A stretch of DNA of 38,429 nucleotides from a virus. Under the pieces are notes generated by a model, which searched no databases, was not told the DNA's origin, and saw only the letters and a list, made by a program, of their open reading frames with translations. Each line of letters starts with the position of its first letter. Position 1 is the first letter of the stretch. Location: positions 1-38,429 of IMG/VR virus record IMGVR_UViG_3300020446_001735. One strand, 5' to 3'. This document shows, in pieces, positions 3,981-38,245 of this stretch. Both the position numbers and the translations under genes were made by a program.

Positions 3981-4009
3981 TTTACATTCTTGTGAAACTG
4001 ATATATAAT
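3981..4009 (+). promoter_or_regulatory. sigma70-type promoter for gene 45
   Basis: TTTACA (3981-3986) lies 17 bases before TATAAT (4004-4009), just after the gene 46 stop. The predicted start is near 4016, giving a 19-base leader with ACGGAG before the gene 45 ATG. Confidence 0.85.
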
Positions 4010-4034
4010 AACTACATAATGAAAACGGAGTTAT

Positions 4035-4715: not shown

Positions 4716-4716
4716 C

Positions 4717-4929: not shown

Positions 4930-4933
4930 ACCA

Positions 4934-4962
4934 TTTACAATCATGACTACTTGTGATATAAT
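4934..4962 (+). promoter_or_regulatory. sigma70-type promoter with extended -10 for gene 44
   Basis: TTTACA (4934-4939), a 17-base spacer ending in TGA, and TATAAT (4957-4962) form an extended -10 promoter. The start is predicted near 4969. The leader carries TGGAG before the gene 44 ATG. Confidence 0.85.
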
Positions 4963-4985
4963 TATTTTTGTTATGGAGATTGTAA

Positions 4986-8183: not shown

Positions 8184-8392
8184 TGAAAACTTTTTTATTA
8201 GTGGTCACTATGTGGGGCCAAACTGAAGATGGCACGTGGTTGTATATGAGAAATCAAGCTGTGCTTAATCATGAATTTACTTATGAGCAGTGTGAAAAAT
8301 TAGCTGCTGATGAATCTTGGACTAAGTGGATGGATAATAAATATTATGACGTTCAGTTTGACTGTCATGAAAAAGGCACTGAAATAAAATGA
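8180..8392 (+). CDS. small hypothetical protein
   Basis: This 70-residue protein begins in an ATGATG overlapping the regA stop and ends in an ATGA overlap with the next gene. It has a short hydrophobic N-terminus (TFLLVVTMW), which could be an uncleaved signal or just a beta strand, then a Trp- and Tyr-rich acidic body with two Cys (YEQCEKL and FDCHEK). No family is recognised. Tight overlaps on both sides support it as a real gene. Confidence 0.7.
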   Translation: MMKTFLLVVTMWGQTEDGTWLYMRNQAVLNHEFTYEQCEKLAADESWTKWMDNKYYDVQFDCHEKGTEIK

Positions 8393-8517
8393 AAACTTTT
8401 AAGCATTGGTGGAGGAACACTGACAGCATAGAAGTAGTTCTTTTTGCTTCACTAGCATTCTGCATTGGATGGGGCATTTACCAGATAATCATAGGCTTAA
8501 TAGGAAGGTTTGGCTAA
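8389..8517 (+). CDS. 42-residue single-pass membrane protein
   Basis: ATG at 8389 overlaps the previous stop, and TAA at 8515-8517 overlaps the next ATG. The product has a basic Trp-rich head (KTFKHWWRN) followed by one hydrophobic segment (about residues 15-38, VVLFASLAFCIGWGIYQIIIG) and a short basic tail. The function is unknown. The start and stop overlaps at both ends are the main support. Confidence 0.7.
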   Translation: MKTFKHWWRNTDSIEVVLFASLAFCIGWGIYQIIIGLIGRFG

Positions 8518-8879
8518 TGAGAAAGTTTGTATACGATTCTTGGAATAGCATTATGGATCATGATGTTAATCCACTAAAACATATTCCAGATTTAAATACA
8601 CGACATATGGTCATGCAAGTATTAGCTTGGATGTGGTGTATTGTATTTTCATTTTATGTTGGTAGCTTCTGGGTTTTTGGCGTCAGCGCAATTGCACATG
8701 TAATTGTACTTGCTGCTATTGCTATTACTGTAGGTACGTTTGAGGTTGCGAAGCGTAACCCAGAGGTTTTTAGTCTGCGCCCGGGTTATCACTCGGTAAG
8801 TCGCACTAGACAATACATGTGGGTTAATGGCCAAAGGGTTGTGCTTGATGCTAATGATCCTGGCGGCGAGCATGAATAA
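8517..8879 (+). CDS. two-helix membrane protein conserved in marine phages
   Basis: The ATG at 8517 overlaps the preceding TAA and has AGGAAGG upstream; the in-frame ATG at 8469 lies inside the previous gene and is rejected. The 120-residue product starts MRKFVYDSWNSIMDHDVNPLKHIP, a pattern I associate with a family of unknown function in marine T4-like and T7-like phages. Two membrane segments follow (about 33-55 and 58-78), then a soluble tail with Arg and Tyr. The function is unknown. Confidence 0.75.
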   Translation: MRKFVYDSWNSIMDHDVNPLKHIPDLNTRHMVMQVLAWMWCIVFSFYVGSFWVFGVSAIAHVIVLAAIAITVGTFEVAKRNPEVFSLRPGYHSVSRTRQYMWVNGQRVVLDANDPGGEHE

Positions 8880-9079
8880 TGGCTAAGATCATTGGAGCTT
8901 CTCATGGTACTATAGCAGACCATGAAATAGTTGTCATAAATAAAAAAGAATTTTATTGCGATGGAGGCGAATTTGGACATCCTAGAGTTTACTTCACTGT
9001 AGGTACTGAAGGATTCGTTATGTGCAGTTATTGCAATATTAAATATGTTTACGAAAAAAATGACTCCTCAGCTATTTAA
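8879..9079 (+). CDS. zf-CHCC zinc-binding protein
   Basis: The 66-residue protein contains YCDGGEFGHPRVYF and CSYC, giving ligands C27, H34, C49 and C52. This is the layout of the zf-CHCC domain (CDGG..HP.VY...CPYC type), found in alphaproteobacterial small proteins and the mitochondrial complex I subunit NDUFS6. The zinc binding is a firm structural prediction; the role in a phage is unknown. It starts in a TAATG overlap. Such proteins are typical of alphaproteobacteria, which fits the tmRNA evidence for the host. Confidence 0.8.
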   Translation: MAKIIGASHGTIADHEIVVINKKEFYCDGGEFGHPRVYFTVGTEGFVMCSYCNIKYVYEKNDSSAI

Positions 9080-9100
9080 ATTTTCGAAAAAAGTACTATA

Positions 9101-9106
9101 TATAAT
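9101..9106 (+). promoter_or_regulatory. -10 element upstream of hsp20
   Basis: TATAAT occurs at 9101-9106 in an AT-rich intergenic stretch, with no good TTTACA 17 bases upstream. The leader downstream contains a short hairpin CCGC-GGAAA-GCGG (about 9115-9127) before the ribosome site TTAGGAGG. A weak or regulated promoter for hsp20 is likely. Confidence 0.55.
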
Positions 9107-9164
9107 ACTGGATGCCGCGGAAAGCGGGTCCATCTACAACCTTGCTTAGTCTTAGGAGGTTCAC

Positions 9165-9632
9165 ATGACTGGCACTTTTACGTTCCCACGCGGAGCATTC
9201 GTTGGCTTTGATCACATTGCGAAAGACTTAGAACGTCTTGCACATGCACACCAAAAAGATCATTATCCGCCACATAATGTAGTCAAGCACAATGATGACG
9301 AGTTTCTTATTGAACTCGCTGTCGTTGGATTCAAAGAAAAAGATATCGATATCACGATGCATGATGGTATTCTAACTGTCAAAGGCGATCGTGAGTCACG
9401 TCGAGATCAAAATCTTTATGTCCATAAAGGTATCAGTGGTAGAAAATTCGAGAGGTCATTTAGACTCTCCGAATTTGTAGAAGTCACTGGAGCTGATCTT
9501 GAAGATGGATTGCTTACAATTCACTTGGAGCGAATCATCCCCGAAGAGAAGCGTCCTCGTAAAATTCTAATTGGAAACTACGAGGAAAAAAATGGCAACA
9601 GCAATTCTCAACTACTCACAGAGTCTGATTGA
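9165..9632 (+). CDS. hsp20: small heat-shock protein, Hsp20 family
   Basis: The 155-residue protein has an alpha-crystallin domain at about residues 36-130, with ELAVVGFKEKDIDITMHDGILTV, a KFERSFRL strand and the ADLEDGLLTIHL strand, where canonical members have A.(Y/L)..G.L.I. Small heat-shock proteins hold unfolding proteins, and Hsp20 genes are common in marine T4-like phages. GAGG lies eight bases before the ATG. The last 41 bases overlap the next gene. Other chaperones are not seen in the window. Confidence 0.93.
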   Translation: MTGTFTFPRGAFVGFDHIAKDLERLAHAHQKDHYPPHNVVKHNDDEFLIELAVVGFKEKDIDITMHDGILTVKGDRESRRDQNLYVHKGISGRKFERSFRLSEFVEVTGADLEDGLLTIHLERIIPEEKRPRKILIGNYEEKNGNSNSQLLTESD

Positions 9633-9834
9633 AGTAATAATCAACGGACTTAAAACCACGCTAAAAGGCATGATGATTGGCTATATGGTCGGTCGTCAGA
9701 CGTCGGCTAATAGCAGAGTCGCTGAATTCTTAATCAGCACAGGCGAGTATAGGCAGCAGCAATACTGGGAAATACTCAACAGGTTAAACAAAGAAACGAT
9801 TGATTCGATTCATAAGGAGTTTAACTACAAATGA
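9592..9834 (+). CDS. small hypothetical protein
   Basis: ATG at 9592 follows CGAGGAAAAAA and lies inside the end of hsp20; a TTG at 9571 is in frame but less likely. The 80-residue product has a moderately hydrophobic helix (about residues 10-28, SLIEVIINGLKTTLKGMMIGYMVG) with a GxxxGxxxG-like spacing and a polar helical C-terminal half. No family is recognised. It could be a weakly membrane-associated protein. Confidence 0.65.
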   Translation: MATAILNYSQSLIEVIINGLKTTLKGMMIGYMVGRQTSANSRVAEFLISTGEYRQQQYWEILNRLNKETIDSIHKEFNYK

Positions 9835-9980
9835 TTAAGATGTTCAAACGAATCTTTAGCTTACGTCCTTCGATGTCATGGCAACAAAGAGAAATAGAAA
9901 GATATCTTGCTAACTCGACTGATCATTTTGACTTAGAATGTCGTCAAAAAGATATCATTTACGGAAGGAAAAATTTATGA
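9831..9980 (+). CDS. DUF3563-like small protein
   Basis: The 49-residue product starts in an ATGA overlap and ends overlapping the pseudoazurin ATG. After a basic amphipathic head (KMFKRIFSLRPS) comes EIERYLANSTDHFDLECRQKDI. This resembles DUF3563, a short proteobacterial and phage family with the pattern EEAYLAQAxDxxDLExR. The function of the family is unknown. The assignment rests on this pattern. Confidence 0.65.
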   Translation: MIKMFKRIFSLRPSMSWQQREIERYLANSTDHFDLECRQKDIIYGRKNL

Positions 9981-10411
9981 AAACATTAGCATTTTATCTA
10001 TCAGCATTTGCAGTTATCTTTGCAGTTAGTTCTGCATCAGCAGCTGATCTTACTATTGATATGCTGAATAAAGATGCAGATGGTAACAAAATGGTTTATT
10101 CGAATGAATTGGCTAGAGTAGAAGTAGGTGAAACTATCACTTGGTTACCAGCTTCGAAAGGTCACAATGTCGAATGGATTGCAGGACCTGATGGAGCAGA
10201 TCTTCCTAAAAAGTCTAAGAATGGCAAAGAAGTTTCTATGACTTTTGAAGTACCTGGCATCTATTACTATTGGTGCACACCACATAAAGGCATGGGCATG
10301 ATTGGTCTTGTCGTAGTCGGTGGCGACGTATCTAATAAAGATGCAATTGCTAAAGCAAAAGCCTTAGGTAAATCAAAGAAGAAGCTAAAGGCTCTCTTAG
10401 GAGAACTTTAA
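9977..10411 (+). CDS. pseudoazurin, secreted type-1 copper protein
   Basis: The 144-residue precursor has a signal peptide ending SASA (cleavage after A22). The mature part of 122 residues matches bacterial pseudoazurins (about 123): MLNKDADGNKMV, KGHNVEW and CTPHKGMGMIG. The type-1 copper ligands are H63, C100, H103 and M108, with the family spacing C-x2-H-x4-M. The C-terminal Lys-rich helices after VVVGG are also present. Pseudoazurins shuttle electrons in the periplasm, for example to nitrite or nitrous oxide reductases. In a phage it could redirect host respiration (inference). The start overlaps the upstream DUF3563-like gene and has ACGGAAGGA before the ATG. Confidence 0.93.
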   Translation: MKTLAFYLSAFAVIFAVSSASAADLTIDMLNKDADGNKMVYSNELARVEVGETITWLPASKGHNVEWIAGPDGADLPKKSKNGKEVSMTFEVPGIYYYWCTPHKGMGMIGLVVVGGDVSNKDAIAKAKALGKSKKKLKALLGEL

Positions 10412-10452
10412 TGTGGCCGTACACAAACGAAGAAGCTGATTGGCTTTCCTAA
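10411..10452 (+). CDS. possible 13-residue micro-ORF
   Basis: An ATG overlapping the pseudoazurin stop is preceded by TTAGGAGAAC and encodes MWPYTNEEADWLS before TAA. The ribosome site and stop-start overlap are those of real genes here, and the terminator follows 14 bases later. A peptide this short may be a translated leader or simply chance. It is listed with low confidence. Confidence 0.35.
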   Translation: MWPYTNEEADWLS

Positions 10453-10454
10453 AA

Positions 10455-10462
10455 TATAAATA
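10455..10462 (+). promoter_or_regulatory. TATAAATA late-promoter match before a terminator
   Basis: An exact T4-type late promoter octamer lies immediately upstream of the terminator hairpin. Transcription from it would begin around 10469, within the hairpin's left arm, which would destroy the terminator stem in that transcript. It could thus serve the Cys-rich gene late, or be chance in AT-rich sequence. Confidence 0.35.
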
Positions 10463-10495
10463 AAAAGGGACAAGAACTCTTGTCCCTTTTAATCT
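10463..10495 (+). terminator. intrinsic terminator after pseudoazurin
   Basis: GGGACAAG (10467-10474) and CTTGTCCC (10479-10486) form a perfect 8-bp stem with a 4-base loop, extended by AAAA/TTTT. A T-rich tail follows. It closes the hsp20-pseudoazurin unit and is followed closely by the ribosome site of the Cys-rich gene. Confidence 0.85.
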
Positions 10496-10507
10496 TAGGA
10501 GGTTCAT

Positions 10508-10651
10508 ATGGCTAAATGCAAGAAATGTGGACATGACTGTCACTGCGAAATGATGTGTGACGAATGTATCAATGATATTTGTACAGGCTGCGATTGTCAA
10601 GAAGAACAAGAAATTGATATCCCTTCATCATTTACTCAGGAGAACGTGTAA
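10508..10651 (+). CDS. 47-residue cysteine-rich, metallothionein-like protein
   Basis: ATG at 10508 has TTAGGAGGTTC upstream, and the TAA overlaps the next ATG. The first 30 residues hold nine cysteines (C4, C7, C11, C13, C17, C20, C25, C28, C30) and two histidines, as CKKCGHDCHC, CDEC and CTGCDC; the rest is an acidic tail. The density and the CxxC, CxC spacing predict binding of a metal cluster, either metallothionein-like or a compact double zinc knuckle. It follows a copper protein, which makes copper or zinc handling a reasonable guess only. Confidence 0.75.
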   Translation: MAKCKKCGHDCHCEMMCDECINDICTGCDCQEEQEIDIPSSFTQENV

Positions 10652-10881
10652 TGCGTAGATTAGGAAAATTAATTGAAGATGCTCTTGTCGATCGGCAAGA
10701 AAAATATTTACGTCTTCGTATCGAGCAGTTAAAAGAAGATATGGAAAAGGCGCATGATGAACACGATAAAAAGTGGTATAATCGGTGTATTCAAGAATTA
10801 GATTGGGCTTTACAAATGAAAGGTAAGCCAGGTCATAATTGCTATATGGCAGAAGCTAACAAAGAAAGAGCAATGTGGTAA
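10651..10881 (+). CDS. hypothetical coiled-coil protein
   Basis: The 76-residue product is strongly charged and helical through residues 5-56 (RLRIEQLKEDMEKAHDEHDKKW). It has a Trp-rich, Cys-containing C-terminal third and no membrane segment. It starts and ends in TAATG overlaps, so it is part of the Cys-rich gene to lysozyme operon. The family is not recognised. Confidence 0.75.
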   Translation: MRRLGKLIEDALVDRQEKYLRLRIEQLKEDMEKAHDEHDKKWYNRCIQELDWALQMKGKPGHNCYMAEANKERAMW

Positions 10882-11063
10882 TGGCAAAACCAAACAAAAA
10901 TTTCAACCTAGACGTTCGAGATATACATCTTATCGAGCTTTCTTTGCGTAACATGTATTGGGAAAGCGAAGAGAAAGCAAAAGAAGTACAACAACTACTA
11001 GGAAAGATATCTAATCAAAAAGTTTGGTATCGTCCTAAAAATCAAATTTATGTGAGTGGATAA
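10881..11063 (+). CDS. small hypothetical protein
   Basis: The 60-residue product begins at the ATG overlapping the previous TAA; a GTG two codons earlier is less likely. The sequence is a helix (VRDIHLIELSLRNMYWESEEKAKEVQQLLGKI with breaks) followed by a short strand region (KVWYRPKNQIYV). The family is not recognised. Its stop is four bases before the lysozyme ATG. Confidence 0.7.
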   Translation: MAKPNKNFNLDVRDIHLIELSLRNMYWESEEKAKEVQQLLGKISNQKVWYRPKNQIYVSG

Positions 11064-11067
11064 AGAT

Positions 11068-11529
11068 ATGAATTTAGAAGCATTAAGAGAAGAATTAAAA
11101 ATTGATGAGGGAGTTAAGTATGAAATTTATCTTGATCACCTTGGTCTCCCTACATTTGGTATTGGGCACCTTGTCCTGGATTCTGATCCAGAACATGGCA
11201 TGGCAGTTGGAACGCCAATCAGCGAAGATCGAGTCAATGAGTGTTTCGATAAAGATGTTGAAGTCGTCCTTGGAGACTGTAGAAAATTGTACGACGACTT
11301 CGATGATCTTCCCGAAGAAGCACAACGAATCATTGCCAATATGCTCTTTAACATGGGACTTCCTCGGCTCTCTAAGTTTAAAGGAATGAAACGTGGCGTA
11401 GACGCGCGCGACTGGGAGGCAGCCGCAGACGAGATGGTAGATTCTCGTTGGTATAGACAAGTTACTAATAGAGCTGACCGGCTGGTTGAAAGAATGAGAG
11501 CAATTACTCTTTCTGAAATCCCTGCATAA
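11068..11529 (+). CDS. e: T4-type lysozyme (GH24 endolysin)
   Basis: The 153-residue protein has the GH24 catalytic triad of T4 lysozyme at conserved spacing: E14 (IDEG), D23 and T29, followed by FGIGHL, with the C-terminal SRWYRQVTNRADR matching T4 SRWYNQTPNRAKR. It cleaves peptidoglycan between MurNAc and GlcNAc. It has no signal peptide, so it would need a holin. I chose the ATG at 11068 because it mimics the T4 N-terminus; a GTG at 11056 is in frame, and neither has a strong ribosome site. A second wall hydrolase lies at 26425. Confidence 0.92.
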   Translation: MNLEALREELKIDEGVKYEIYLDHLGLPTFGIGHLVLDSDPEHGMAVGTPISEDRVNECFDKDVEVVLGDCRKLYDDFDDLPEEAQRIIANMLFNMGLPRLSKFKGMKRGVDARDWEAAADEMVDSRWYRQVTNRADRLVERMRAITLSEIPA

Positions 11530-11531
11530 AA

Positions 11532-11545
11532 AGGTTTACAAACCT
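11532..11545. repeat. inverted repeat covering the gene 43 -35 box
   Basis: AGGTTT and AAACCT flank a 2-base centre (11532-11545) and contain the whole -35 hexamer TTTACA. It may be an operator. It lies upstream of the predicted transcription start, so it would act at the DNA level rather than in the gene 43 mRNA. Confidence 0.45.
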
Positions 11546-11563
11546 GGCAAAACTTGATATAAT
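11535..11563 (+). promoter_or_regulatory. promoter giving a leaderless gene 43 transcript
   Basis: TTTACA (11535-11540), 17 bases, then TGA-TATAAT (11558-11563). Seven bases beyond the -10 is 11570, the A of the gene 43 ATG. There is no purine-rich ribosome site before the ATG. The mRNA is therefore predicted to be leaderless. Confidence 0.85.
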
Positions 11564-11569
11564 TATAGC

Positions 11570-14089
11570 ATGTTTTATACTTCAGTAGTCCGTTATGGAA
11601 ATAGCATGCTTTATCGCGGATATGATTCTGCCGGAAAGCGTGTCGTTCGAAAAGATCATTTCCAACCAGAGTTTTTTGTTCCCTCAAAGAAAGACACCGG
11701 CTGGCGAGGCCTAGACAATACCTCGATTGGCCGGCTGTCTTTTCAGAACATGCGCGAAGCCAAAGGCTGGTTGGAACAAAACAAAGATGTAGTCGGTAGG
11801 CATGTGTATGGTAACACCAACTACATCCACCAGTATATCACGTCTAAATTCAAATACGATGTTGAATTTGATCGTGACAAAATCAACGTATCTACAATTG
11901 ATATTGAAACAGAATATGACGATGGATTCCCTCATCCTCATGAAGCATCACAGCGCATTCTTGCAATTACTCTTAAAAACAATATTGATGGCATTTATTG
12001 GGTATGGGGTTACGGCGACTACAATGTAGATGATGCTCTTATCAAGCCCGTAAGATATATCAAATGTCTAGACGAGCCTGATCTTCTTCTCAAGTTCTTG
12101 GATTTCTTTTCATCGCCGGAAAAATGTCCGGATGTTATCACAGGCTGGAACGTACGTTTCTTTGATGTTCCATACCTCGTAAATCGTACAGCAAAAATTC
12201 TTGGTCTTGAACAAGTCAAAAAGTTTTCGCCATGGGGCCTGGTTGATTATCGTAAGGTCGTACGTCGTGGTAAAGAAGATGAGACATATGATCTCAAAGG
12301 TATTCAGACACTTGATTATCTCGAGCTCTTCCAAAAATTTGGATACTCGTATGGTCCACAAGAATCATACAAACTCAACCACATTGCTTATGTAGTTCTT
12401 GGTGAAAAGAAACTTTCATTCGAAGAATCCGGTTCTCTTAAAAATCTCTACAAAGACGACTTTCAAAAATATATCGACTACAACATGAAAGACGTGCAAC
12501 TGGTTGACCGGTTGGAAGATAAGCTTGGCCTTATTACTCTGGCCATGACCGTAGCGTATAAGGGTGGTGTTAATTATCAAGATACGTTTGGAGTCACCGC
12601 TATATGGGAATCGATTATCTATCGATATCTCAATCGCCAAAAGCGCGTACCATCCGTGGCTCAATTGGAAAGCGGCGATTACCAGATTATTGGTGCTGAC
12701 GATGCCGGTGGATACTCAATCGCTGGTGGCTATGTCAAAAATCCAAAGCCTGGCGCATATGATTGGGTTGTGTCTTTTGATTTGAACTCTCTGTATCCAA
12801 ACATCATTGTTCAGACAAATATCTCGCCTGAAACATTGTTACCCAAAACCAATTGGCTCATGCCTGGTGTCAAACATTATCTCAACACTGCTCCACCAGA
12901 AAGTAATCATTCAATTGCTGCCAATGGTACTACGTATCGTAAAGACATCGATGGTATCATTCCAACTATCATTAAAGATTACTATGCCGAACGCGTTTCT
13001 GTTAAGAAAATGCAACTGGCGCATGAGTCTGAATATCAAAAGGGTAAGACATACGAGCTAGAAAAACAGATTGCCACACTTAACAATCAGCAGATGGCTA
13101 TCAAAATTCTACTCAACTCTTTATATGGTGCGTTGGCTAACAAGTATTTCAAGTACTTCCATCCAGGCATGGCTGAAGGCGTAACACTCACAGGCCAGAC
13201 TACAATCAAGTGGGCTGAACGTGCTATGAATGGTGCCATGAATGATCTGCTTAAGACTGAAAAAGATTATGTGATCGCAATCGATACGGATTCAATCTAC
13301 GTTAACTTTGGTCCGCTAGTAGAAAAGCTACAGCCAAAAGATCCGGTTAAGTTCCTTGATAAGATTTGTCAAGAACACTTTGAACCTATGATCGCAAAAT
13401 CATATGACGCTTTCTTCACACGCATGAATCACCATACCAAGCGTATGGAAATGGCAAGGGAAGTAATTGCTGACCGTGGCATCTGGACTGCGAAGAAGCG
13501 TTATATCTTAAATGTCCATAACTCAGAAGGTGTGCAGTATGCTGAACCAAAACTCAAGATCATGGGGATCGAAGCAATCAAGTCCTCAACTCCAGAGGTA
13601 TGTCGCGACAAGTTCAGGGAAGTTTTCAAAATCATCATATCTGGATCTGAAGGCGACACTCAGGAGTTTATACGTCGATTCAAAGAAGAGTTCAAGTCAC
13701 TTCCTCCCGAAAACGTGGCATTCCCGCGCTCGGTCTCGAATATTACAGACTGGCACGATCGGCGCTCTGTATACAAGAAAGGAACACCCATTCACGTTCG
13801 CGGTTCCCTCCTTTACAACAAGCTTGTTAAAGACGCCAAGCTCTCAAAGCGATATGAGCTTGTCACAAATGGTTCTCGCATCTTCTTCACATACATGAAG
13901 AAACCTAATCCTATGCATGAGAATGTGATTGCGTTTCCAGATATTCTGCCACAAGAACTCAAGCTAAATAATTACGTTGATTATGACATGCAATTCAACA
14001 AAACTTTTGTGGAACCACTGCAGCTTATACTCGACGCAGTTGGCTGGACAGCCGAGCCGATCGCAACTCTCGATGAATTCTTCGCTTAG
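11570..14089 (+). CDS. 43: family B DNA polymerase (gp43)
   Basis: The 839-residue protein has the proofreading exonuclease motif TIDIETE (near residue 110), polymerase motif A SFDLNSLYPNI (near 402), motif B KILLNSLYGALAN (near 512) and motif C IDTDSIY (near 572), in the order and spacing of T4 gp43 (898 residues). It replicates the phage genome with the gp45 clamp. The C-terminus ATLDEFFA is a clamp-binding tail like that of T4 gp43. The start codon directly follows the promoter with no leader. The gene is intact, with no intron or split. Confidence 0.96.
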   Translation: MFYTSVVRYGNSMLYRGYDSAGKRVVRKDHFQPEFFVPSKKDTGWRGLDNTSIGRLSFQNMREAKGWLEQNKDVVGRHVYGNTNYIHQYITSKFKYDVEFDRDKINVSTIDIETEYDDGFPHPHEASQRILAITLKNNIDGIYWVWGYGDYNVDDALIKPVRYIKCLDEPDLLLKFLDFFSSPEKCPDVITGWNVRFFDVPYLVNRTAKILGLEQVKKFSPWGLVDYRKVVRRGKEDETYDLKGIQTLDYLELFQKFGYSYGPQESYKLNHIAYVVLGEKKLSFEESGSLKNLYKDDFQKYIDYNMKDVQLVDRLEDKLGLITLAMTVAYKGGVNYQDTFGVTAIWESIIYRYLNRQKRVPSVAQLESGDYQIIGADDAGGYSIAGGYVKNPKPGAYDWVVSFDLNSLYPNIIVQTNISPETLLPKTNWLMPGVKHYLNTAPPESNHSIAANGTTYRKDIDGIIPTIIKDYYAERVSVKKMQLAHESEYQKGKTYELEKQIATLNNQQMAIKILLNSLYGALANKYFKYFHPGMAEGVTLTGQTTIKWAERAMNGAMNDLLKTEKDYVIAIDTDSIYVNFGPLVEKLQPKDPVKFLDKICQEHFEPMIAKSYDAFFTRMNHHTKRMEMAREVIADRGIWTAKKRYILNVHNSEGVQYAEPKLKIMGIEAIKSSTPEVCRDKFREVFKIIISGSEGDTQEFIRRFKEEFKSLPPENVAFPRSVSNITDWHDRRSVYKKGTPIHVRGSLLYNKLVKDAKLSKRYELVTNGSRIFFTYMKKPNPMHENVIAFPDILPQELKLNNYVDYDMQFNKTFVEPLQLILDAVGWTAEPIATLDEFFA

Positions 14090-20201: not shown

Positions 20202-21018
20202 GAAGATTGCTATCATTGGACATGGCTATGTAGGGAAAGCTGTAGATCATGGCTTTTCCACATCGCATGTTGAAAAGTTTTTGGTGGATCCAATTTATGG
20301 TTCTACCATTGGTGATCTTAAACTTAAAACTCGTTTGGACGCAGCATTTGTTTGCGTTCCGACACCATTCGGAGATGATGGAAGTATTGATGCCTCGATT
20401 GTAAAAGAAGTTGTGACAGAGCTTCAATACTTTAATTGTCCTATTATCATCAAGTCGACAGTGACTCCTGATATTGTAAGTGAACTTTATAATGAAGACT
20501 CGAATGTTGTTTACAATCCGGAGTTTCTAACCGAAGCAAATGCTCTTGATGATTTTATTAATCCTTCTATGCATATCTTTGGAGGTAACATTATGATTAC
20601 TCGTAGAGTTCAAGAACTTTACGAAAATCACAGTCAGTGTCGTCCTTGTCCTGTCAGGCATATGACTCCTGCTGAAGCGAGCTTTGTTAAGTATGGAATC
20701 AATAGTTTTCTAGCTACAAAAGTTCTATGGTTCAACCAATTTAAAGATGTGGTGGATCAACATGATTCAAAATACAATGTGGTTGTAAATGCCATGAGCA
20801 TGGATCCACGTATTTCTACTTCGCATATGCAGGTGCCAGGACCTGATGGTAAAAAAGGATTTGGCGGAGCATGCTTCCCCAAAGACACTAACGCCTTTTC
20901 TACTTTCTCTCAAAATGCTTTCACTGTTCTAGATGAAGTGATTAGTGCCAATAATACATATAGAAAAGAATATGATCTAGACCACAGAGAAATTGAACAG
21001 AAAGTAAATTATGGCTAA
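20191..21018 (+). CDS. minimal UDP-glucose 6-dehydrogenase
   Basis: The 275-residue protein has the UGD signatures in order: GHGYVG (10-15), FVCVPTP (53-59), STVTP (89-93), NPEFLTEANALDDF (109-122), FVKYGINSF with K167 and N171, and GGACFPKD with catalytic C228. It ends about 30 residues after that cysteine, so the whole C-terminal UDP-binding domain (about 130 residues in usual 390-450 residue enzymes) is absent, and the N-terminal Rossmann part is shortened too. All core catalytic residues remain. AAGGAG precedes the ATG, which lies inside the epimerase end. The product would be UDP-glucuronate. Confidence 0.85.
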   Translation: MSIKKIAIIGHGYVGKAVDHGFSTSHVEKFLVDPIYGSTIGDLKLKTRLDAAFVCVPTPFGDDGSIDASIVKEVVTELQYFNCPIIIKSTVTPDIVSELYNEDSNVVYNPEFLTEANALDDFINPSMHIFGGNIMITRRVQELYENHSQCRPCPVRHMTPAEASFVKYGINSFLATKVLWFNQFKDVVDQHDSKYNVVVNAMSMDPRISTSHMQVPGPDGKKGFGGACFPKDTNAFSTFSQNAFTVLDEVISANNTYRKEYDLDHREIEQKVNYG

Positions 21019-22210
21019 CTACGCAAGTATTGTTCCTCTAATCGGAGGAGAAACAATAGCAATGCAAAATGTATTCGGGTCTCGGCCCGAATACATTCTG
21101 TCTTACGAAGGATTTGAAAACAATGATCAACACTTGGTGGAATACTATAAGAGAGAAGTTCCCTACCATCTTATTCAAGGTGATTCTTTACCTCAGGTTG
21201 AGTCTGTTGATGTCATTAATACTGTTTGCCCTTGCGCTGGGCTTAGCAGTCTTAGTGTCACAAGCTCTTCTGACGCTGCTGCTAATGATTGGATGCGTAC
21301 CAGTGCTCGTCATGTACTCGGTCATCTACGGCCCAAGGTCTTTTGGGGAGAAAATGCACCACGACTTGCTTCAAAAATGGGAGAACCAGTCGTGGAAGAT
21401 CTTCGAAAGATCGGAAGAGAAAATGGCTACACTTTTAGCATCTTTAAAACAAAAAGTATCCTTCATGGATTATCTCAAGTAAGAGATCGTACTTTTTATT
21501 TTTTCTGGAAAGGCGAAAAGGTACCACAATTTGAATATATAAAACGTGAGCATGAAACGATCGAGGATACGATTCGCTCCGTGAAGCGGGATCCAAGTGA
21601 TCCAATGAACATCCTAACGTCTGATCGTGCTCCGTCACAAGATCCATATTATAGGTACGTTCTCGAAGAAATGGAGAACGGCATTAATCACAGCGCGTTT
21701 CAAGATAAACTTGAAAAAAGCTATGATGTGAAGCACTACATTGAAGACAATGGAGTTACCTATGACAAAGTATCTAAATGGATGTCAAAGCATGGCTACG
21801 AGAAACAAGCTTCTCGTTGTATGGACATGTATCATAAATTAAAGAGTGGTGGTAATATTATGCGTCGTGGTGTCAATATTCCAAAAGGCTACATTGGAGC
21901 TTTTGTTGGCGCATATCCTATGACACTGACTCATCCGGATGAAGATAGATTTCTAACATTGAGAGAATGCTTATCAATTATGAAACTGCCTGAAGATTTT
22001 ATTCTTCAAGGTGGACTAAAAAATATCAATCACATCTGTCAGAACGTGCCAGTAACGACAGCACAGGACATGGCAGATCATGTACTTCGTTATGTTGATG
22101 GAAGATTAGATAACCAACTAATCGATACCGATTATCTCGTACAAGACAACAAGTCTCAAACGCTTTCTTATGAAAAAGAGAGTGTACAACTTGACGCATT
22201 TATGGTATAA
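21011..22210 (+). CDS. cytosine-C5 DNA methyltransferase homologue
   Basis: The 399-residue protein keeps the C5-methyltransferase motifs CPCAGLS (motif IV, catalytic C75), GENAPR (motif VI) and QVRDRTFYFF (motif VIII). Motif I, normally DLFAGxGG, is replaced by IVPLIGGET, so cofactor binding may be altered. There is a long central target-recognition region (about 190-290) and a C-terminal motif IX/X part. It ends VQLDAFMV, similar to the gp43 clamp tail. The ATG at 21011 overlaps UGD; an ATG at 21062 behind GGAGGAG would remove motif I. Its substrate in a hydroxymethylcytosine phage is unclear. Confidence 0.82.
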   Translation: MANYASIVPLIGGETIAMQNVFGSRPEYILSYEGFENNDQHLVEYYKREVPYHLIQGDSLPQVESVDVINTVCPCAGLSSLSVTSSSDAAANDWMRTSARHVLGHLRPKVFWGENAPRLASKMGEPVVEDLRKIGRENGYTFSIFKTKSILHGLSQVRDRTFYFFWKGEKVPQFEYIKREHETIEDTIRSVKRDPSDPMNILTSDRAPSQDPYYRYVLEEMENGINHSAFQDKLEKSYDVKHYIEDNGVTYDKVSKWMSKHGYEKQASRCMDMYHKLKSGGNIMRRGVNIPKGYIGAFVGAYPMTLTHPDEDRFLTLRECLSIMKLPEDFILQGGLKNINHICQNVPVTTAQDMADHVLRYVDGRLDNQLIDTDYLVQDNKSQTLSYEKESVQLDAFMV

Positions 22211-32517: not shown

Positions 32518-32546
32518 AAAAAAGCGTCCTTCGGGGCGCTTTTTTT
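32518..32546 (+). terminator. intrinsic terminator with UUCG loop
   Basis: GCGTCC (32524-32529), TTCG, GGGCGC (32534-32539), flanked by an A-run and followed by seven Ts, is a textbook terminator. It isolates the transporter gene from the head-protein block. Confidence 0.93.
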
Positions 32547-32547: not shown

Positions 32548-32576
32548 TTTACAAAAGACTATAAATAGTGTATACT
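32548..32576 (+). promoter_or_regulatory. early promoter with a late promoter inside its spacer
   Basis: TTTACA (32548-32553) and TATACT (32571-32576) are 17 bases apart. The exact late octamer TATAAATA fills 32560-32567, within the spacer. Both would start a few bases before the gene at 32597. Confidence 0.78.
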
Positions 32577-32596
32577 AGTCTGGAATGGAGACAAAA

Positions 32597-33406
32597 ATGA
32601 AAAGACTCAAAACTTATATAAAGGAGATGGCTGCTATGAATGTAAGTGAAATGGATTCTGAGTTTCTTAAAAGAGCTCAGCGCGTAACATCCTTCAATCT
32701 AAGAACAGCTGATTTCGAAAGTCTTGATCACAAAGCTGAGATTCAGTTTCTTTTCAAGACACACTTCTTTCCAGACTTTGACTTGGATTCTACTATTACT
32801 AGAGGTATAACAAAAGACAAAGCAAATGAAATAATTCGTGCCCTTAAAAGTGAAGATGCTTCTGCATACAATAAGTTGCACTTCTATAACTTGAAAGGTG
32901 TTGGCCCGGGCGAAGCAGCATTATATTTCATTTGTGATCAAGCAAAGCTTGGTGGTGGCACTAGTGCTGGTGTCGATTTGGTTATTGGATCTAAGCAGTA
33001 CGAAGTAAAAGCAGCTCAGTATTCTTCTGCAACCAGTACTGTCTATGGATTTAAACTTGGTGGTACTGTTCCTCTGGGTAACATGGTTACTAAGGCAGTT
33101 GAATTGAAAGAGCGCCTCGGTTTGAGAACTTCGGGTAAAGGACAGAATGAAGTTAACAAAACTCAAATTGAAGCGATTAAGAAAGAATTTCCTCGAGAGT
33201 GGAATGCTATTGAGAGAGATTATGCTAACAAAGCTCATGTATATTTTGGTAGAACACCAGTCATATTCATGAATAACAATAACACTGGCGGCAGATTAAC
33301 ACGTAGTGGTGGTGGTGAAATTATTTCAATTAAAGTGGTAGACAAACCAGACATTCAAATTGAAACAATAACCCAAGGTACAATTAAGCCAAGAGTGAAA
33401 GTGTAA
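32597..33406 (+). CDS. putative head-targeted PD-(D/E)XK nuclease
   Basis: The 269-residue product starts at 32597 behind ATGGAGACAAAA; an ATG at 32585 adds four residues. The N-terminus KRLKTYIKEM resembles the T4 capsid targeting peptide (KTYQEFI-E) with an IxE cleavage site. The core has GEAALYFI with E106, GVDLVIG with D127 and YEVKAA with E136 and K138, the D-x8-E-x-K layout of the restriction-endonuclease fold. Neither nuclease activity nor packaging is proven. It is the first of a block of large proteins with similar N-termini. TAATG overlaps the next gene. Confidence 0.62.
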   Translation: MKRLKTYIKEMAAMNVSEMDSEFLKRAQRVTSFNLRTADFESLDHKAEIQFLFKTHFFPDFDLDSTITRGITKDKANEIIRALKSEDASAYNKLHFYNLKGVGPGEAALYFICDQAKLGGGTSAGVDLVIGSKQYEVKAAQYSSATSTVYGFKLGGTVPLGNMVTKAVELKERLGLRTSGKGQNEVNKTQIEAIKKEFPREWNAIERDYANKAHVYFGRTPVIFMNNNNTGGRLTRSGGGEIISIKVVDKPDIQIETITQGTIKPRVKV

Positions 33407-34632
33407 TGGAATTTAAACAGTACATCACAGAACAAAAGAATACACACATGACTCACATTGAGGATAAGGTTCTCTATGGTGGAGTCGCTGGAACGCGTGA
33501 AGCAATCCTCGCATTGCGTTCCTTAAGAGATGCTTTAGGAGGTGTGCATGACGGAAGAGTCTCGGTTAAGTGGGATGGCGCGCCGGCTGTGTTCGCAGGC
33601 GTGGATCCAAGAGACAGTAGATTTTTTGTTGCTAAGAAAGGGATTTTTAATAAATCACCAGTCGTCTATAAGACTAACGCTGATATTGATGCTGATACTT
33701 CTGGCGATCTCAATGCCAAGTTAAAGTTAGCACTCAAGCATTTTCCAAGTCTAGGAATCAAAGGAGTAATTCAAGGTGACTTCTTATTTGGACCAGGTGA
33801 TGTTACGACTAAAAGAATTAAAGGAAAGCAGTATGTCACTTTCCACCCAAACACGATTGTTTATGCAATCCCGGCAAACACGGAGATGGCCAAGGAGGTC
33901 ACCTCCAAGAAAATCGGAGTGGTATGGCATACAACTTACACCGGAAACTCGTTCGAAACAATGAAAGCATCCTATGGAGTAAATGTTTCGGCACTCAATA
34001 AAACAAAGGATGTTTGGTCACAAGACGCAATGTTACGTGATATGACCAGTTATAGCATGTCAGCAGAAGATACGGAGGAGATAAATGGATATCTTTCAGA
34101 AGCTGGTAGGCTCTTTAATCAAATTTCTTCAACAACTCTTAAGCAGCTTGAAGAAAATCGCAAGCTTGCGGAAACTATTGAACAATTCAATAACACGTAT
34201 GTCAGACGCGGCGAAGTTGTGCTGGACACACGTGGTCACGTTGAAAAACTCATTCGTTTTATCCGTCAAAAATTTCAAAAAGAAATTGACAAAAGGACAA
34301 CCGAAAGAGGAAGAATGACTCAGATTGGAAAGCTAAATGAATTTTTAGCTTTCTTTTCTCCACAGAATAAAACTTCTTTGAAGAAAATATTCGATCTTCA
34401 AAAAATGCTAATTCTTGCAAAATTAAAAATTATAAATACTCTAAACAAACTAAACAATACACAAACCTTTTTGAAAACGAGAAAAGGATATCGTACAACA
34501 GGCCAGGAAGGCTATGTAGCAATCGATAAACTTGGTGGTGACGCAGTGAAAATTGTTGATCGGATGGAATTCTCATTCGCCAACTTTTCACCTACTATAT
34601 TAAAAGGATGGGATAAGCCGGGGAGAAAATAA
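33406..34632 (+). CDS. DUF6267-like nucleotidyltransferase/ligase-fold protein
   Basis: The 408-residue product begins MEFKQYITEQ, a targeting-like peptide with an ITE site. It contains SVKWDGAP (K55-W-D-G58, motif I KxDG of nucleotidyltransferases), FVAKKGIF, VIQGDFLFG (like motif IV) and KKIGVVWHTTY (like motif V), in the order seen in DNA and RNA ligases. I associate it with DUF6267. The C-terminal half is helical and basic. An RNA or DNA ligase activity is possible but not shown. It lies between a nuclease-like and a basic protein. Confidence 0.68.
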   Translation: MEFKQYITEQKNTHMTHIEDKVLYGGVAGTREAILALRSLRDALGGVHDGRVSVKWDGAPAVFAGVDPRDSRFFVAKKGIFNKSPVVYKTNADIDADTSGDLNAKLKLALKHFPSLGIKGVIQGDFLFGPGDVTTKRIKGKQYVTFHPNTIVYAIPANTEMAKEVTSKKIGVVWHTTYTGNSFETMKASYGVNVSALNKTKDVWSQDAMLRDMTSYSMSAEDTEEINGYLSEAGRLFNQISSTTLKQLEENRKLAETIEQFNNTYVRRGEVVLDTRGHVEKLIRFIRQKFQKEIDKRTTERGRMTQIGKLNEFLAFFSPQNKTSLKKIFDLQKMLILAKLKIINTLNKLNNTQTFLKTRKGYRTTGQEGYVAIDKLGGDAVKIVDRMEFSFANFSPTILKGWDKPGRK

Positions 34633-35111
34633 TGCCAGACATTTATGACCATCAAAAGCCATTGGGTGGTCCTCTTTCATTCAGACATTTTTACGTTGCC
34701 GAGTATCGTCCAGGTGAGGATGAGCTAACAAATTATCGTGCCAAGAAGCGCAAGAACGGTGCAATGTATGAAGAGTCTGAAGATGTAGATGAAGCTCTTA
34801 CACTTCAGCAAAGAATTAAGCGCGGACGAATGATGAAGAGAATGAAGTCTCGCATCAAGATTGGTCGTGAACGTGCAAAGAGGAAAATGGCACCGGTTGC
34901 AAAACTGAAGAAGCGCGCAAATCGTAAAGCAAGAGATTTAATTGTACGTAAAATTACAAAGGACATTCCTAAAAAAGATTTAACTTTTGCTCGAAAGCAA
35001 GAGATTGAGAAGCGTTTAGAGAAGCCAGCGTTCAAGGCTCGCATTGCTCGACTCGCAAAAAGAATGTTCCCTAAGATTCGTAAAGCAGAAGTGGCAAGAA
35101 AAAAAGGATGA
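34632..35111 (+). CDS. highly basic putative head or DNA-binding protein
   Basis: The 159-residue product has an acidic region around residues 26-55 (GEDELTNY, EESEDVDEAL), followed by an extremely basic helical part (residues 60-159) full of Lys and Arg (RIKRGRMMKRMKSRIKIGRERAKRK). This looks like an internal head protein or DNA-binding protein. DEAL at about 54 could be a processing site, though this is uncertain. No enzyme motif is seen. It overlaps both neighbours by 1 to 4 bases. Confidence 0.68.
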   Translation: MPDIYDHQKPLGGPLSFRHFYVAEYRPGEDELTNYRAKKRKNGAMYEESEDVDEALTLQQRIKRGRMMKRMKSRIKIGRERAKRKMAPVAKLKKRANRKARDLIVRKITKDIPKKDLTFARKQEIEKRLEKPAFKARIARLAKRMFPKIRKAEVARKKG

Positions 35112-36304
35112 TTAGCTCCTTTAAGAATTATCTGGTTGAAGAGGAGAAGACTCTGTACTTTGTATGGGGTCGTATGAATCCTCCTACAGCTGGTCATGAA
35201 AAATTACTTGACTTCTTAAAACAAAAAGCAGGTAGCAACCCGTTTAGAATTTATTTGACACAGTCAGAGGATCAAAATAAAAATCCTATTCCTTTTGCTC
35301 AAAAGATCAAATTTGCTCGCAAAGGTTTTCCTCAGTATGCTCGTCAAATTATGATGAATAGAAAACTAAAAACTATCTTTGATGCTATGACATCTTTTTA
35401 TAATGAAGGTTTCAAAAGAATCGTAATTGTGGCTGGTCAGGATAGAGTGAACCAATATGATGTCTTATTGAAAAAATATAATGGCAAAAAAGGTAAACAT
35501 GGTTTCTATAATTTTGAGAGAATTAATGTTTTAAGTGCTGGTGATCGTGATCCAGAAGCTGAAGGTGTTGAAGGTGTATCCGGTACGAAACTAAGAGGGT
35601 ATGTAAAAGCTGGTGACTTTACTAAATTTGCTCAGTTCATGCCAAAGAGACTTTCGAATGCTGACGCAAAACAAGTATTCAATGCTGTACGTAAAGGTTT
35701 AGGCTTAAAAGAACAAAGAGAATTTATTAATCATGTACAACTTGAAAAAGTATCTGATAAAAGAGAAGCATATGTTAACGGCGAGTTATTTCAAGCCGGT
35801 GATAAAGTAGTCATTAAAGACACAGACGTAGTTGCCGAAGTTAAACATTTAGGTCCTAACTACGTTATTGTTGAATCAAATGGTGTACAAATGAGAAAAT
35901 GGATTGAACATGTTGAGTTTCTTGAGAGAACAACATCTCCTCAAGACCCGGACATTAAAGATCGTAAAGGTACTCAACCCGCTGCATATCACGGACGTGA
36001 TGCAAAAGGTAAAGAGATGTCAAAAGGAACAAAGGCTGCACGTGACAGGCACTTTAAGAAAGGTGCAAAGATGGATGATGATAATCCTGCAGCATATAAA
36101 AAAGCTCCTGGAGATCATGGTGCAAAGACAAAGCCAAGTAAACACACCACTCGATTCAAACAAATGTACGGCGAAACAATCGCTGTAAACATGGCAAAAC
36201 AAAAGATCGATCGTGAAAAACAAGCCGACAAAGTAAAACACGATCGCATGATGGATAGAGCTCGATTAAGAGACACCAGAAGAAAAAACAGGGAAACGGC
36301 ATGA
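35108..36304 (+). CDS. putative head-targeted HIGH-type nucleotidyltransferase
   Basis: The 398-residue product begins ISSFKNYLVEEEK, a targeting-like peptide with an LVE site. Next comes an adenylyl/cytidylyltransferase fold: VWGRMNPPTAGHEKLL (16-34, T27-x2-H30), an IVIVAGQDR strand and VSGTKLRGYV, equivalent to the (I/V)SSTxIR motif. The fold ends near residue 190. The rest is a positively charged extension with KKAPGDHGAKTKPSKHTTRFKQMYGE and many Lys/Arg. Relatives include NMN and phosphopantetheine adenylyltransferases, but the substrate is unknown. The ATG overlaps the previous stop. Confidence 0.7.
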   Translation: MISSFKNYLVEEEKTLYFVWGRMNPPTAGHEKLLDFLKQKAGSNPFRIYLTQSEDQNKNPIPFAQKIKFARKGFPQYARQIMMNRKLKTIFDAMTSFYNEGFKRIVIVAGQDRVNQYDVLLKKYNGKKGKHGFYNFERINVLSAGDRDPEAEGVEGVSGTKLRGYVKAGDFTKFAQFMPKRLSNADAKQVFNAVRKGLGLKEQREFINHVQLEKVSDKREAYVNGELFQAGDKVVIKDTDVVAEVKHLGPNYVIVESNGVQMRKWIEHVEFLERTTSPQDPDIKDRKGTQPAAYHGRDAKGKEMSKGTKAARDRHFKKGAKMDDDNPAAYKKAPGDHGAKTKPSKHTTRFKQMYGETIAVNMAKQKIDREKQADKVKHDRMMDRARLRDTRRKNRETA

Positions 36305-36552
36305 TTAGATTCAAACAATACATTTCAGAAAATGCAACAGCTGCTTTAAAAAAGAAAGCAGAAAAATCTGGCATGCCACTAGGCATTCTCCGTAAAGTCT
36401 ATAATCGAGGAGTTGCTGCATGGCGTACTGGACACAGACCAGGAACCACACCGCAGCAATGGGGTTTGGCAAGAGTTAACTCATTTGTAACTAAGTCATC
36501 TGGTACTTGGGGCAAAGCAGATAAAGACTTAGCAGCAAGGGTAAGAAAATGA
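36301..36552 (+). CDS. small conserved phage protein with FKQYISE start
   Basis: The 83-residue product starts MIRFKQYISENATAALKKKAE. The following KSGMPLGILRKVYNRGVAAWRTGHRPGTTPQQWG region is a pattern I recognise as a family conserved in marine phages (possibly DUF5824), with no known function. Basic and helical, it may bind DNA. The start peptide matches the one at 33406 (FKQYI-E). ATGA overlaps join both neighbours. Confidence 0.72.
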   Translation: MIRFKQYISENATAALKKKAEKSGMPLGILRKVYNRGVAAWRTGHRPGTTPQQWGLARVNSFVTKSSGTWGKADKDLAARVRK

Positions 36553-37502
36553 CAGTTAAAAGCGCAGACAAAAAACCTGAAAAGTATGTAGGATCGGATG
36601 GTAAGCCTAAGATCCGTATGGTGCCTGTTGACAAGAATGTCACTAATGAAGTTTCGAAAGGCATGGTCGGTAGATACTTGAAAAAAGTTCCTGCCAGCGC
36701 AGCCGATGCTGGAAGAAAATCCAGCGGTGCTATGGGTATTGGCGCAGATGATCAAAAGAAACAAATGAAAAAAGGAATCAGCCAATTTGTCAATAGACAA
36801 AGAGGTACTACTATGGCGGTAGATAAAATGACTGGTAAAGCTAAAGTTCCTGCCACTGAAGAAAAGCACGTCTTTAGATTTAGCACAAAGACAAAGCAAG
36901 GAAACATTCACCATGATTCAAAAGACCATAAGTCTGCGGCCGATGCTATTCAAAAAAGAACCGGAGAAAAGGTACAAAGCATGACTTATAAAGGTAAAGT
37001 GTCAAGTATGCCTCGTGCAAGACGTGAAGATTCTGATGCAGTCAAAGCATTTCTTGCCAAAGGTGGTAAGATTAAAAAGCTTCCTCCTGCAAAAGCACAA
37101 GGCTATCATGGTAAAGACGATCCGGGTAAAGACATGCACGGTGTCATGGACAAACCAGATACAAAAGCAATGGGTACACGTAAAAAGGTGAAGTCAATGG
37201 AAGGTAAAAGATTCGCAGATTTAAGAGCTCAAGTTGCTGAAGGTTATGCTTCTTATGCACAACAGAAAGCAGCACATGCCTCAATGGCAGAGCGCGGTAA
37301 GAAAAAGAGTAAAAATGAAAGTATGCTTGGTCATTCTGATGCTGAGAAATTAAATGGTGGCAAGTCAAGAGATTCTAACTTTAAGTCTCCTGAGTCTCAT
37401 ATTGATCATCATCATAGAAAGACCGGTGGTCATGAAAAGTCTGGTGGTGATGCAGATCGCCATAGATATCAAGTGGCTAAAAAATTAGGGTATGACGTAT
37501 AA
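36549..37502 (+). CDS. large basic, low-complexity hypothetical head protein
   Basis: The 317-residue product is very rich in Lys, Gly, Asp and Ser, with no hydrophobic core until a short strand pair (KHVFRFSTKTKQGNIHH, KVQSMTYKGKVSS) near residues 105-150. His-rich segments occur at the end (ESHIDHHHRKTGGHEKSGG). It is likely largely disordered, as in internal virion or scaffold proteins. A central KDMHG-K region resembles the HGRDAKGKEMSKG repeat in the previous large protein. The family is not recognised. Confidence 0.65.
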   Translation: MTVKSADKKPEKYVGSDGKPKIRMVPVDKNVTNEVSKGMVGRYLKKVPASAADAGRKSSGAMGIGADDQKKQMKKGISQFVNRQRGTTMAVDKMTGKAKVPATEEKHVFRFSTKTKQGNIHHDSKDHKSAADAIQKRTGEKVQSMTYKGKVSSMPRARREDSDAVKAFLAKGGKIKKLPPAKAQGYHGKDDPGKDMHGVMDKPDTKAMGTRKKVKSMEGKRFADLRAQVAEGYASYAQQKAAHASMAERGKKKSKNESMLGHSDAEKLNGGKSRDSNFKSPESHIDHHHRKTGGHEKSGGDADRHRYQVAKKLGYDV

Positions 37503-38245
37503 TGCCATTAAAAGTCTCAGATGGAATAGGAACGTGGATTAAGGATTTTAAAAAATCCAAAGCTCCACAGTTCAAAGGTAAGAACGAAAAGGAACGCCGT
37601 GATATGGCAGTTGCTGCCTATCTGTCTGCGAAAGATGAGAAGCGAGAAGTAAAAGAGGAAACAAACTTCCAAGTAAACATTGAAGGTTTACCAATGATGT
37701 TTATTGGAGGTATGAGTCCTGGTGAAGTCAAGGCCAAGTTACGTGGTATTGTCAAGCAGCCTTCTATGATTAAGAGTGTTCGTCGAGTTACAGATGCCGA
37801 AGTCAAGAAAAACTTTAGACTGAAAGCACAAGGCCGTGATGATGAAGAAGAAGTAGAAGAGCAGTATAAGTATGATTATGGTACACCTGAATCTGTAAGG
37901 CTCATGAAGAAAATTACACCGGGTGAGAAGAATGAAAAGCATATGGTGAAGGATAAGAAGCTAAAGAACCTGTATGTTCCTAATCCGAAAGATCCTACTC
38001 CTTTCCAAAAAGCTAAAAAGATTATGAAAAACAGGCAGACCAATGAAGGATCTGAAAGTTGGGAATCTGGCTACAAGCGTAGAGTTGTAAAGACGACAAA
38101 GCCTGAGCATAAAGCAAAAGGATACAATTGGAGAATCAAAGGGAAAGATCGTCCGGAGATTTCAATTAAGTTGTATAGAGAAAAGCCATCACAGGCCGAG
38201 TTTAACAAACAAATGAAAAGGGTTGCAGGACATGAGTTCGGCTGA
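37502..38245 (+). CDS. basic hypothetical protein with conserved N-terminal motif
   Basis: The 247-residue product starts MPLKVSDGIGTWIKDFKKSK, followed by APQFKGKNEKERRDMAVAAYLSAK, a helix-rich motif I have seen at the start of marine phage structural proteins. A small strand-helix domain follows (QVNIEGLPMMFIGGMSPGEVKAKLRGI), then a Lys-rich, probably disordered tail. The TAATG start joins it to the previous gene, and its end overlaps the next start. The function is unknown. Confidence 0.65.
   Translation: MPLKVSDGIGTWIKDFKKSKAPQFKGKNEKERRDMAVAAYLSAKDEKREVKEETNFQVNIEGLPMMFIGGMSPGEVKAKLRGIVKQPSMIKSVRRVTDAEVKKNFRLKAQGRDDEEEVEEQYKYDYGTPESVRLMKKITPGEKNEKHMVKDKKLKNLYVPNPKDPTPFQKAKKIMKNRQTNEGSESWESGYKRRVVKTTKPEHKAKGYNWRIKGKDRPEISIKLYREKPSQAEFNKQMKRVAGHEFG

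Follow-up and report, generated by a model that had tools for sequence, protein, structure and literature searches.

What could bring a similar short peptide to the start of several unrelated proteins encoded side by side in a marine relative of phage T4? The question is raised by IMG/VR record IMGVR_UViG_3300020446_001735, analysed here on one strand from position 1 to 38,429 (the window, 38,429 nt, to which coordinates refer unless another record is named), which carries T4-like replication genes (gp45, DNA polymerase B, UvsX and a DnaB-like helicase). Seven co-oriented overlapping open reading frames (ORFs) run along its plus strand from 32585 to 38245, and the first five, here called the module, encode a 273-amino-acid (aa) nuclease candidate, a 408-aa DUF6267 protein, a 159-aa Lys/Arg-rich protein, a 398-aa nucleotidyltransferase and an 83-aa DUF5824 protein. 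An earlier note on this DNA had proposed that enzymes encoded here carry head-targeting N-termini and are injected into the host. Taken as a whole, we give a probability of about 0.75 to the reading that the module is a late operon for T4-type internal head proteins, enzymes among them, which would be targeted to the prohead core, trimmed, packaged, ejected and active at once in the next host.

The four peptides that the earlier note had singled out for their (I/L)xE ending are present, in frame and where that note had placed them. They share the motif [F/L]xxY[I/L]xE and read MKRLKTYIKE in the nuclease (32597–32626; L4, Y7, I8 and E10), MEFKQYITE in the DUF6267 protein (33406–33432), MISSFKNYLVE in the nucleotidyltransferase (35108–35140) and MIRFKQYISE in the DUF5824 protein (36301–36330; F4, Y7, I8 and E10). 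Met 32597 is the probable start of the nuclease, since GGAG lies just upstream and the majority of aligned relatives start there. The bodies behind the peptides belong to different Pfam or PHROG families or to none, two of them being matched by phrog_455 in separate regions of its profile. The likeness to T4 that the note had seen holds as well: the spacing is that of the T4 capsid targeting sequence (CTS), as in IPII and IPIII, which begin MKTYQEFIAEA in AF158101, where IPI starts with MKTFKEFTSTTT and has ITEA at a later point. When anchored on F/Y, the motif singles out ipII and ipIII alone among the 57 T4 coding sequences (CDS) scanned. For IPIII, targeting has been assigned mainly to residues 4 and 7 and processing to residues 8 and 10, and the T4 peptide alone packages foreign enzymes, including EcoRI and staphylococcal nuclease (PMC9026906).

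Since the window had already been inspected when the motif expression was drawn up, independent tests on relatives, virion proteomes and promoters weigh more than the occurrence of the motif here, where its first form is found in 4 of 187 ORFs of at least 50 aa, all within the module cluster. Conservation of the peptide, on which the earlier note had staked its proposal, is high: the strict motif is present in 61/65 distinct relatives of the DUF6267 protein, 53/56 of the nucleotidyltransferase, 13/18 of the nuclease and 29/47 of the DUF5824 protein (62–95%), against a background of 3/689 N-termini (0.4%) from genes of at least 100 aa outside the module in five genomes. If the (I/L)xE is allowed to slide, as in IPI, this relaxed motif is found in 61/65, 53/56, 18/18 and 44/47, respectively, and in 33/689 of the background; a looser form occurs in 0.5–2.1% of internal 22-residue windows (six sequences). 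One truncated nuclease frame, four 5'-open SAM-lyase (S-adenosylmethionine lyase) frames and one DUF6267 row interrupted by a stop codon were excluded from these comparisons; the last comes from relative G002, where the DUF6267 reading frame is broken near its N-terminus (contig positions 5001–6221). Among motif-bearing relatives, counted per position on rows selected by the motif itself, F stands at −6 (for the nuclease, either F or L), Y or F with some H at −3, I or L with some V or M at −2 and E at 0, while the intervening positions vary more; at position 4 the nuclease has Leu in the window, and 10 of 13 distinct motif-matching relatives have Phe there. The small Lys/Arg-rich protein has a degenerate copy, LSFRHFYVAE, within the stretch MPDIYDHQKPLGGPLSFRHFYVAE (34632–34703), and only 2/65 of its relatives match strictly and 14/65 in the relaxed form, which makes its membership of the peptide-bearing set doubtful.

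At least in the nuclease, the peptide seems to have been appended to the protein body, because a tail of about 21 residues modelled with low confidence (predicted local distance difference test, pLDDT, below 50 at ORF residues 1–9 and 11–21, with a whole-model mean of 85) precedes a confident body and because the relative in Vibrio phage Va1 is free of the peptide. Similar starts are also found on other bodies. Relatives of SAM lyase encoded on IMG/VR contigs have starts such as MKTFKEFIQE and MKTYKEFISEA, which resemble those of T4 IPII and IPIII, with the motif in 29 of 44 distinct N-termini under the strict form and 36 of 44 under the relaxed one, and nucleotidyltransferases of the S-SZBM1 type carry it in 41/41. 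The slot ahead of the DUF6267 gene is filled differently among relatives: by a 460-aa protein starting MLRFKAFLLE in G001 and a 451-aa protein starting MIKFKNYILE in G003, each with one gene between, and by a 361-aa protein starting MQGFKTFLSE in Methylophilales phage Melnitz, a cultured phage that also encodes relatives of the DUF6267, nucleotidyltransferase and DUF5824 proteins. A prohead protease of the gp21 family was found in 2/2 phages and 5/6 relative contigs, with LxE sites, identified by eye, at the expected place of their capsid protein.

When would such a module be expressed? A T4-type late-promoter octamer, TATAAATA, lies at 32560–32567 on the plus strand, 25 bp upstream of the ORF start at 32585 and 37 bp upstream of Met 32597, and is preceded by a terminator-like hairpin and T-run (32524–32546) that was read from the sequence and missed by the pattern scan. 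In 23/23 distinct relatives the 100 bp ahead of the nuclease contain the octamer [ACT]ATAAATA, compared with 94/5460 random stretches (1.7%) of the same loci, and an interval of this length holds it in 1/79 relatives for DUF6267, 0/69 for the small protein, 0/71 for the nucleotidyltransferase and 1/50 for DUF5824. Relatives G001, G002 and C48C1 have it 10–41 bp upstream of the protein filling the slot before DUF6267 or of its neighbour, and G003 has it 22 bp upstream of a 203-aa gene directly ahead of the slot protein. Octamers are not enriched genome-wide (11, 33, 34, 27 and 33 sites, with 10, 37, 21, 34 and 19 expected); the signal is one of position, not of number. Judged from the octamer, this suggests that the module is transcribed late.

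Published virion proteomes of cyanophages allow the proposal to be examined in relatives. The T4-GC190 cytidylyltransferase, a homolog of the window nucleotidyltransferase, has been detected by others in virions of S-SM1 (PMC3037559), S-SCSM1 (PMC9602691), S-SZBM1 (PMC9146016, Table 1) and S-CREM2 (PMC10665884, Table 3). The last three phages were compared in full (719 CDS, 130 virion proteins), with virion status taken from the record annotation for S-SCSM1 (48 CDS; the paper, PMC9602691, gives 45) and from tables for S-SZBM1 (30) and S-CREM2 (52). An F-anchored motif starting at an offset of up to 20 was present in 7/130 virion proteins and 5/589 others (p 0.0019), and in 6 and 4 proteins, respectively, at an offset of up to 12 (p 0.0035); for the loose motif the figures were 9 and 17 (p 0.031) and 7 and 9 (p 0.015) at the same two offsets. 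In S-CREM2 alone, the loose motif at an offset of up to 13 marks 5/52 virion proteins and 2/167 others (p 0.009), gp12, whose motif starts only at residue 19, being missed. Each of the three phages has one homolog of the window nucleotidyltransferase (29–37% identity over 261–328 aa), and all three carry the peptide (MKSFLQFLKEA, MRFRQFIIEA and MKNFSSFLTEA) and are found in the virion; the single DUF6267 homolog of each phage is without the peptide, and 0/3 are in the virion.

In S-CREM2, all named non-structural virion enzymes except two endolysins, four in number, carry the peptide: the SAM lyase (MKDFDSFLEE), the kinase (MKRFDAFLTE), a Cas9-like protein (FASFMAE from residue 19) and the cytidylyltransferase. 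The first three, all virion-detected, lie at 3837–13331 of OR473000, the SAM lyase matching PF23780 (E 2.3e-19); the Cas9 name of gp12 is that of its authors and was not reproduced by searches of Pfam, PADLOC and PDB sequences. The sequence NATAAATA starts 27–30 bp upstream of gp6, gp13, gp136 and gp154, and gp12 and gp14, with no octamer of their own, sit downstream of gp13 and gp15, each of which has NATAAATA just upstream. The major capsid gene, the portal gene and S-SZBM1_140 have no octamer within 150 bp upstream. As a separate observation, small proteins encoded near the terminase gene (S-SZBM1 122311–123125; S-SCSM1 44215–44535) begin MKSFKSFLSE, MKTFKQYITE and MKTFKQFMSE; they are not reported in virions and are candidate internal proteins.

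What the module might carry is best seen in the nuclease candidate (32585–33406; 269 aa when counted from Met 32597), for which the D..ExK core noticed earlier proved robust: E110, D118, D131, E140 and K142 are invariant in 20/20 alignment rows, with D131 and E140-x-K142 forming the core. Its predicted structure gave weak but consistent matches, rows 1–11 of the structural re-alignment all being restriction endonucleases (best Z 4.7, root-mean-square deviation 4.0, 144 aligned) and the best Foldseek match being DpnI (E 0.08); no match was found among PDB sequences. A restriction-endonuclease-like fold is likely, short of proof, because of the invariant residues and these structural matches, and a nuclease of this type carried in with the DNA could attack that of the host. 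The window also encodes a C5-cytosine DNA methylase (21011–22210; PF00145, E 2.9e-16), and the idea that it protects phage DNA from the phage's own nuclease was rejected after a comparison of nine other genomes or contigs, all seven IMG/VR contigs among them possibly being fragments: three nuclease-bearing ones have no methylase match and one of six nuclease-free ones has a match.

The DUF6267 protein (33406–34632; PF19782, E 4e-98) was less amenable to structure prediction. The KWDG motif, on which a ligase-type assignment had been based, is conserved, as K55-x-D57-G58, Q123-G124-D125, E368-G369-x-V371 and K382 are invariant and in this order in 19/19 rows; we take these to correspond to ligase motifs I, III, IV and V. 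The structural model is poor (pLDDT 61.8), making a fold search uninformative; PDB profiles gave only implausible matches, with nothing sensible below E 0.04, and the protein matched neither the fused protein of Va1 described below nor the annotated RNA ligase of that phage. The assignment therefore rests on motifs, no structural or sequence relation to ligases having been found, and the protein is best called ligase-like, a putative nucleotidyltransferase of the ligase type.

The third enzyme predicted earlier, a HIGH-type nucleotidyltransferase (35108–36304), has a motif reading GRMNPPTAGH and belongs to the phage families phrog_3041 (E 4.7e-67) and phrog_395, named cytidyltransferase; against PF01467 (CTP_transf_like) it reached 17.6 bits, under the Pfam cut-off of 21, and it was filed under the phrog families instead. 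The ligase-type and HIGH-type activities, as predicted from motifs, recur together, also with the nuclease. The phrog_455 profile takes in the DUF6267 protein at its positions 22–342 and the nucleotidyltransferase at 419–724, and Vibrio phage Va1 has a 484-aa protein (10496–11950 in that phage) that carries KTDG close to its N-terminus and ends in a PF01467 domain barely above cut-off, adjoining the homolog of the nuclease (11965–12759), both without the peptide. No function is assigned to the small protein (34632–35111; phrog_23027, E 1.5e-14) or to the DUF5824 protein (36301–36552; PF19141, E 8.8e-19). PADLOC gave no match for the nuclease, DUF6267, nucleotidyltransferase and DUF5824 proteins, none of the five module proteins exceeded an NCBIfam cut-off, and a viral structure library returned two uncharacterised phage proteins at E <0.001.

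Together, these results support the view that the N-termini behave as a CTS of the T4 type, because the spaced residues are kept on unrelated bodies, the peptide is conserved, a late octamer stands upstream and relatives are found in virions. The sequence of events that we infer is that the proteins would be made late in infection and would bind the prohead core through their first 9 to 11 residues; the gp21 prohead protease would then cut after the Glu of (I/L)xE, freeing the bodies inside the head, where they would be packaged with the DNA and from where they would enter the next host alongside it. There, the nuclease and the ligase-type and HIGH-type nucleotidyltransferases would be active without delay, their most likely target being the nucleic acid of the host or its defences. 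Packaging alone deserves more confidence than the whole chain and is well supported by inference, and any given enzymatic role deserves less; judged by their motifs, anti-defence roles or roles linked to NAD (nicotinamide adenine dinucleotide) are as good a fit as the processing of nucleic acid. The proposal of injected enzymes is thus sustained in part, in its T4-type targeting peptide and its nuclease, and the ligase keeps its motifs.

A number of observations weigh against this reading. In the window the Glu is followed by M, Q, E or N, while T or A takes that place at the capsid-protein sites inferred by eye in relatives (LTE/T, LSE/A, LNE/A and LTE/T). The motif was found in 0/434 ORFs of HTVC008M, and the nuclease relative of Va1 does without it. 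A sigma-70-like promoter (TTTACA-17-TATACT, 32548–32576 on the plus strand, from the pattern scan) overlaps the late octamer and would allow early expression, and many relatives have a TATAAATAGTGTATAAT-like sequence at the same place. With regard to virions, the nuclease, small protein and DUF5824 protein have no homolog in the three cyanophage proteomes at E 1e-3, and the T4-GC190 enzyme went undetected in an earlier proteome of S-PM2 (PMC3037559). Some peptide-bearing proteins are undetected in virions (gp30 and gp77 of S-SCSM1, S-SZBM1_191 and _192, and gp71 of S-CREM2), some annotated virion proteins encoded near gp91 of S-SCSM1 lack the F-anchored motif (gp89, gp90, gp92, gp93, gp95 and gp97), and the authors of the S-CREM2 proteome consider contamination possible (PMC10665884, section 19).

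Could the peptide package these proteins for head assembly or DNA condensation and not as effectors for the next host? IPIII is part of the T4 core and affects head morphogenesis (PMC9026906). The small module protein is rich in Lys and Arg, and small genes adjoining gp21 in G001 and G003 begin MKLFTELRK and MKYFTELRK, all of which would suit such a role; enzyme motifs in three of the bodies, a slot before DUF6267 that different proteins occupy, and the retention in Va1 of a nuclease relative without the peptide are difficult to reconcile with it, and we regard it as unlikely.

An improbable explanation, in our view, is that the peptide is a docking motif gathering enzymes on a cytoplasmic partner in the infected cell, with no relation to the capsid. 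The two-region match of phrog_455 and the Va1 fusion, which adjoins the nuclease, link the activities without packaging, and most virion proteins (123/130) lack the motif; speaking against it are a form shared with T4 IPII and IPIII, the late octamer, the detection of peptide-bearing relatives in virions and the T4-like peptides of SAM lyases, which as far as is known need no such partner. That the N-termini resemble one another by chance, or as loosely amphipathic beginnings that share no role, is suggested by the shortness of the expression and by the relaxed background given above; this is very improbable given the distance between the strict background and the four families, the fixing of precisely those positions that are functional in T4 while their neighbours vary, and the association of the motif with virion proteins and promoters.

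The reading as a late operon of packaged enzymes has consequences beyond this module. The T4 head holds three small internal proteins together with Alt, and the present results suggest that marine phages of the T4 type put this label on whole enzymes, in which case the motif offers a sequence rule for predicting virion cargo. It also bears on the doubt raised in print (PMC10665884, section 19) as to whether the enzymes detected in virions of cyanophages are true cargo or contamination: in S-CREM2 the label is present on the SAM lyase, the kinase, the Cas9-like protein and the cytidylyltransferase. A wider idea, for and against which we see the chances as evenly balanced, is that the T4 CTS serves as a portable shipping label on many unrelated marine-phage enzymes, mostly behind late promoters, which preloads a takeover and anti-defence kit acting at DNA entry, before phage gene expression; its cargo would comprise the restriction-like nuclease, ligase-type and HIGH-type nucleotidyltransferases, SAM lyase, kinase and Cas9-like protein. 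That a CTS may let T4-like phages take various proteins into their capsids has already been proposed in a T4 review (PMC9026906), and in the papers found on capsid targeting in cyanophages and marine phages, no title or opening of an abstract reported such enzyme cargo.

Elsewhere in the window, a plastocyanin-family copper protein (9938–10411; PF00127, E 5.8e-17) and an IMP dehydrogenase/GMP reductase (6294–7412; PF00478, E 3e-72) are encoded, both likely auxiliary metabolic genes.

In comparison with known systems, the module stands closest to the T4 internal proteins IPI, IPII and IPIII, with which it shares the aromatic/aromatic/aliphatic/Glu peptide at the same spacing, unrelated bodies and an upstream late-promoter octamer. 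T4 Ip1-3 are described as injected inhibitors of type IV restriction enzymes whose leader is the sole shared part (PMC12373910); as internal proteins of 95–193 aa that inhibit host enzymes they differ from the module, whose proposed cargo looks enzymatic and reaches 408 aa and whose peptide is F/L-anchored with a different residue after the Glu. T4 Alt, an ADP-ribosyltransferase, is a head-carried and ejected enzyme as proposed for the module (PMC9026906), a likeness drawn from its description, and it belongs to a different enzyme class. The window nuclease resembles the PD-(D/E)xK restriction endonucleases (ThaI, entry 3ndh, MspI, HincII, NhoI, HinP1I, EcoRV and DpnI) in its D...ExK core and its top structural rows, and differs from them in Z scores below 5 and in having no PDB sequence match. 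The cyanophage NMNAT-like (nicotinamide mononucleotide adenylyltransferase-like) cytidylyltransferases (T4-GC190) of S-SM1, S-SCSM1, S-SZBM1 and S-CREM2 have a body homologous to that of the window nucleotidyltransferase and, in the last three, a peptide of the same kind; passages of those papers on these enzymes give their presence in virions and name no targeting peptide. We regard the module as a variation on the T4 internal-protein system and not as a new kind of system.

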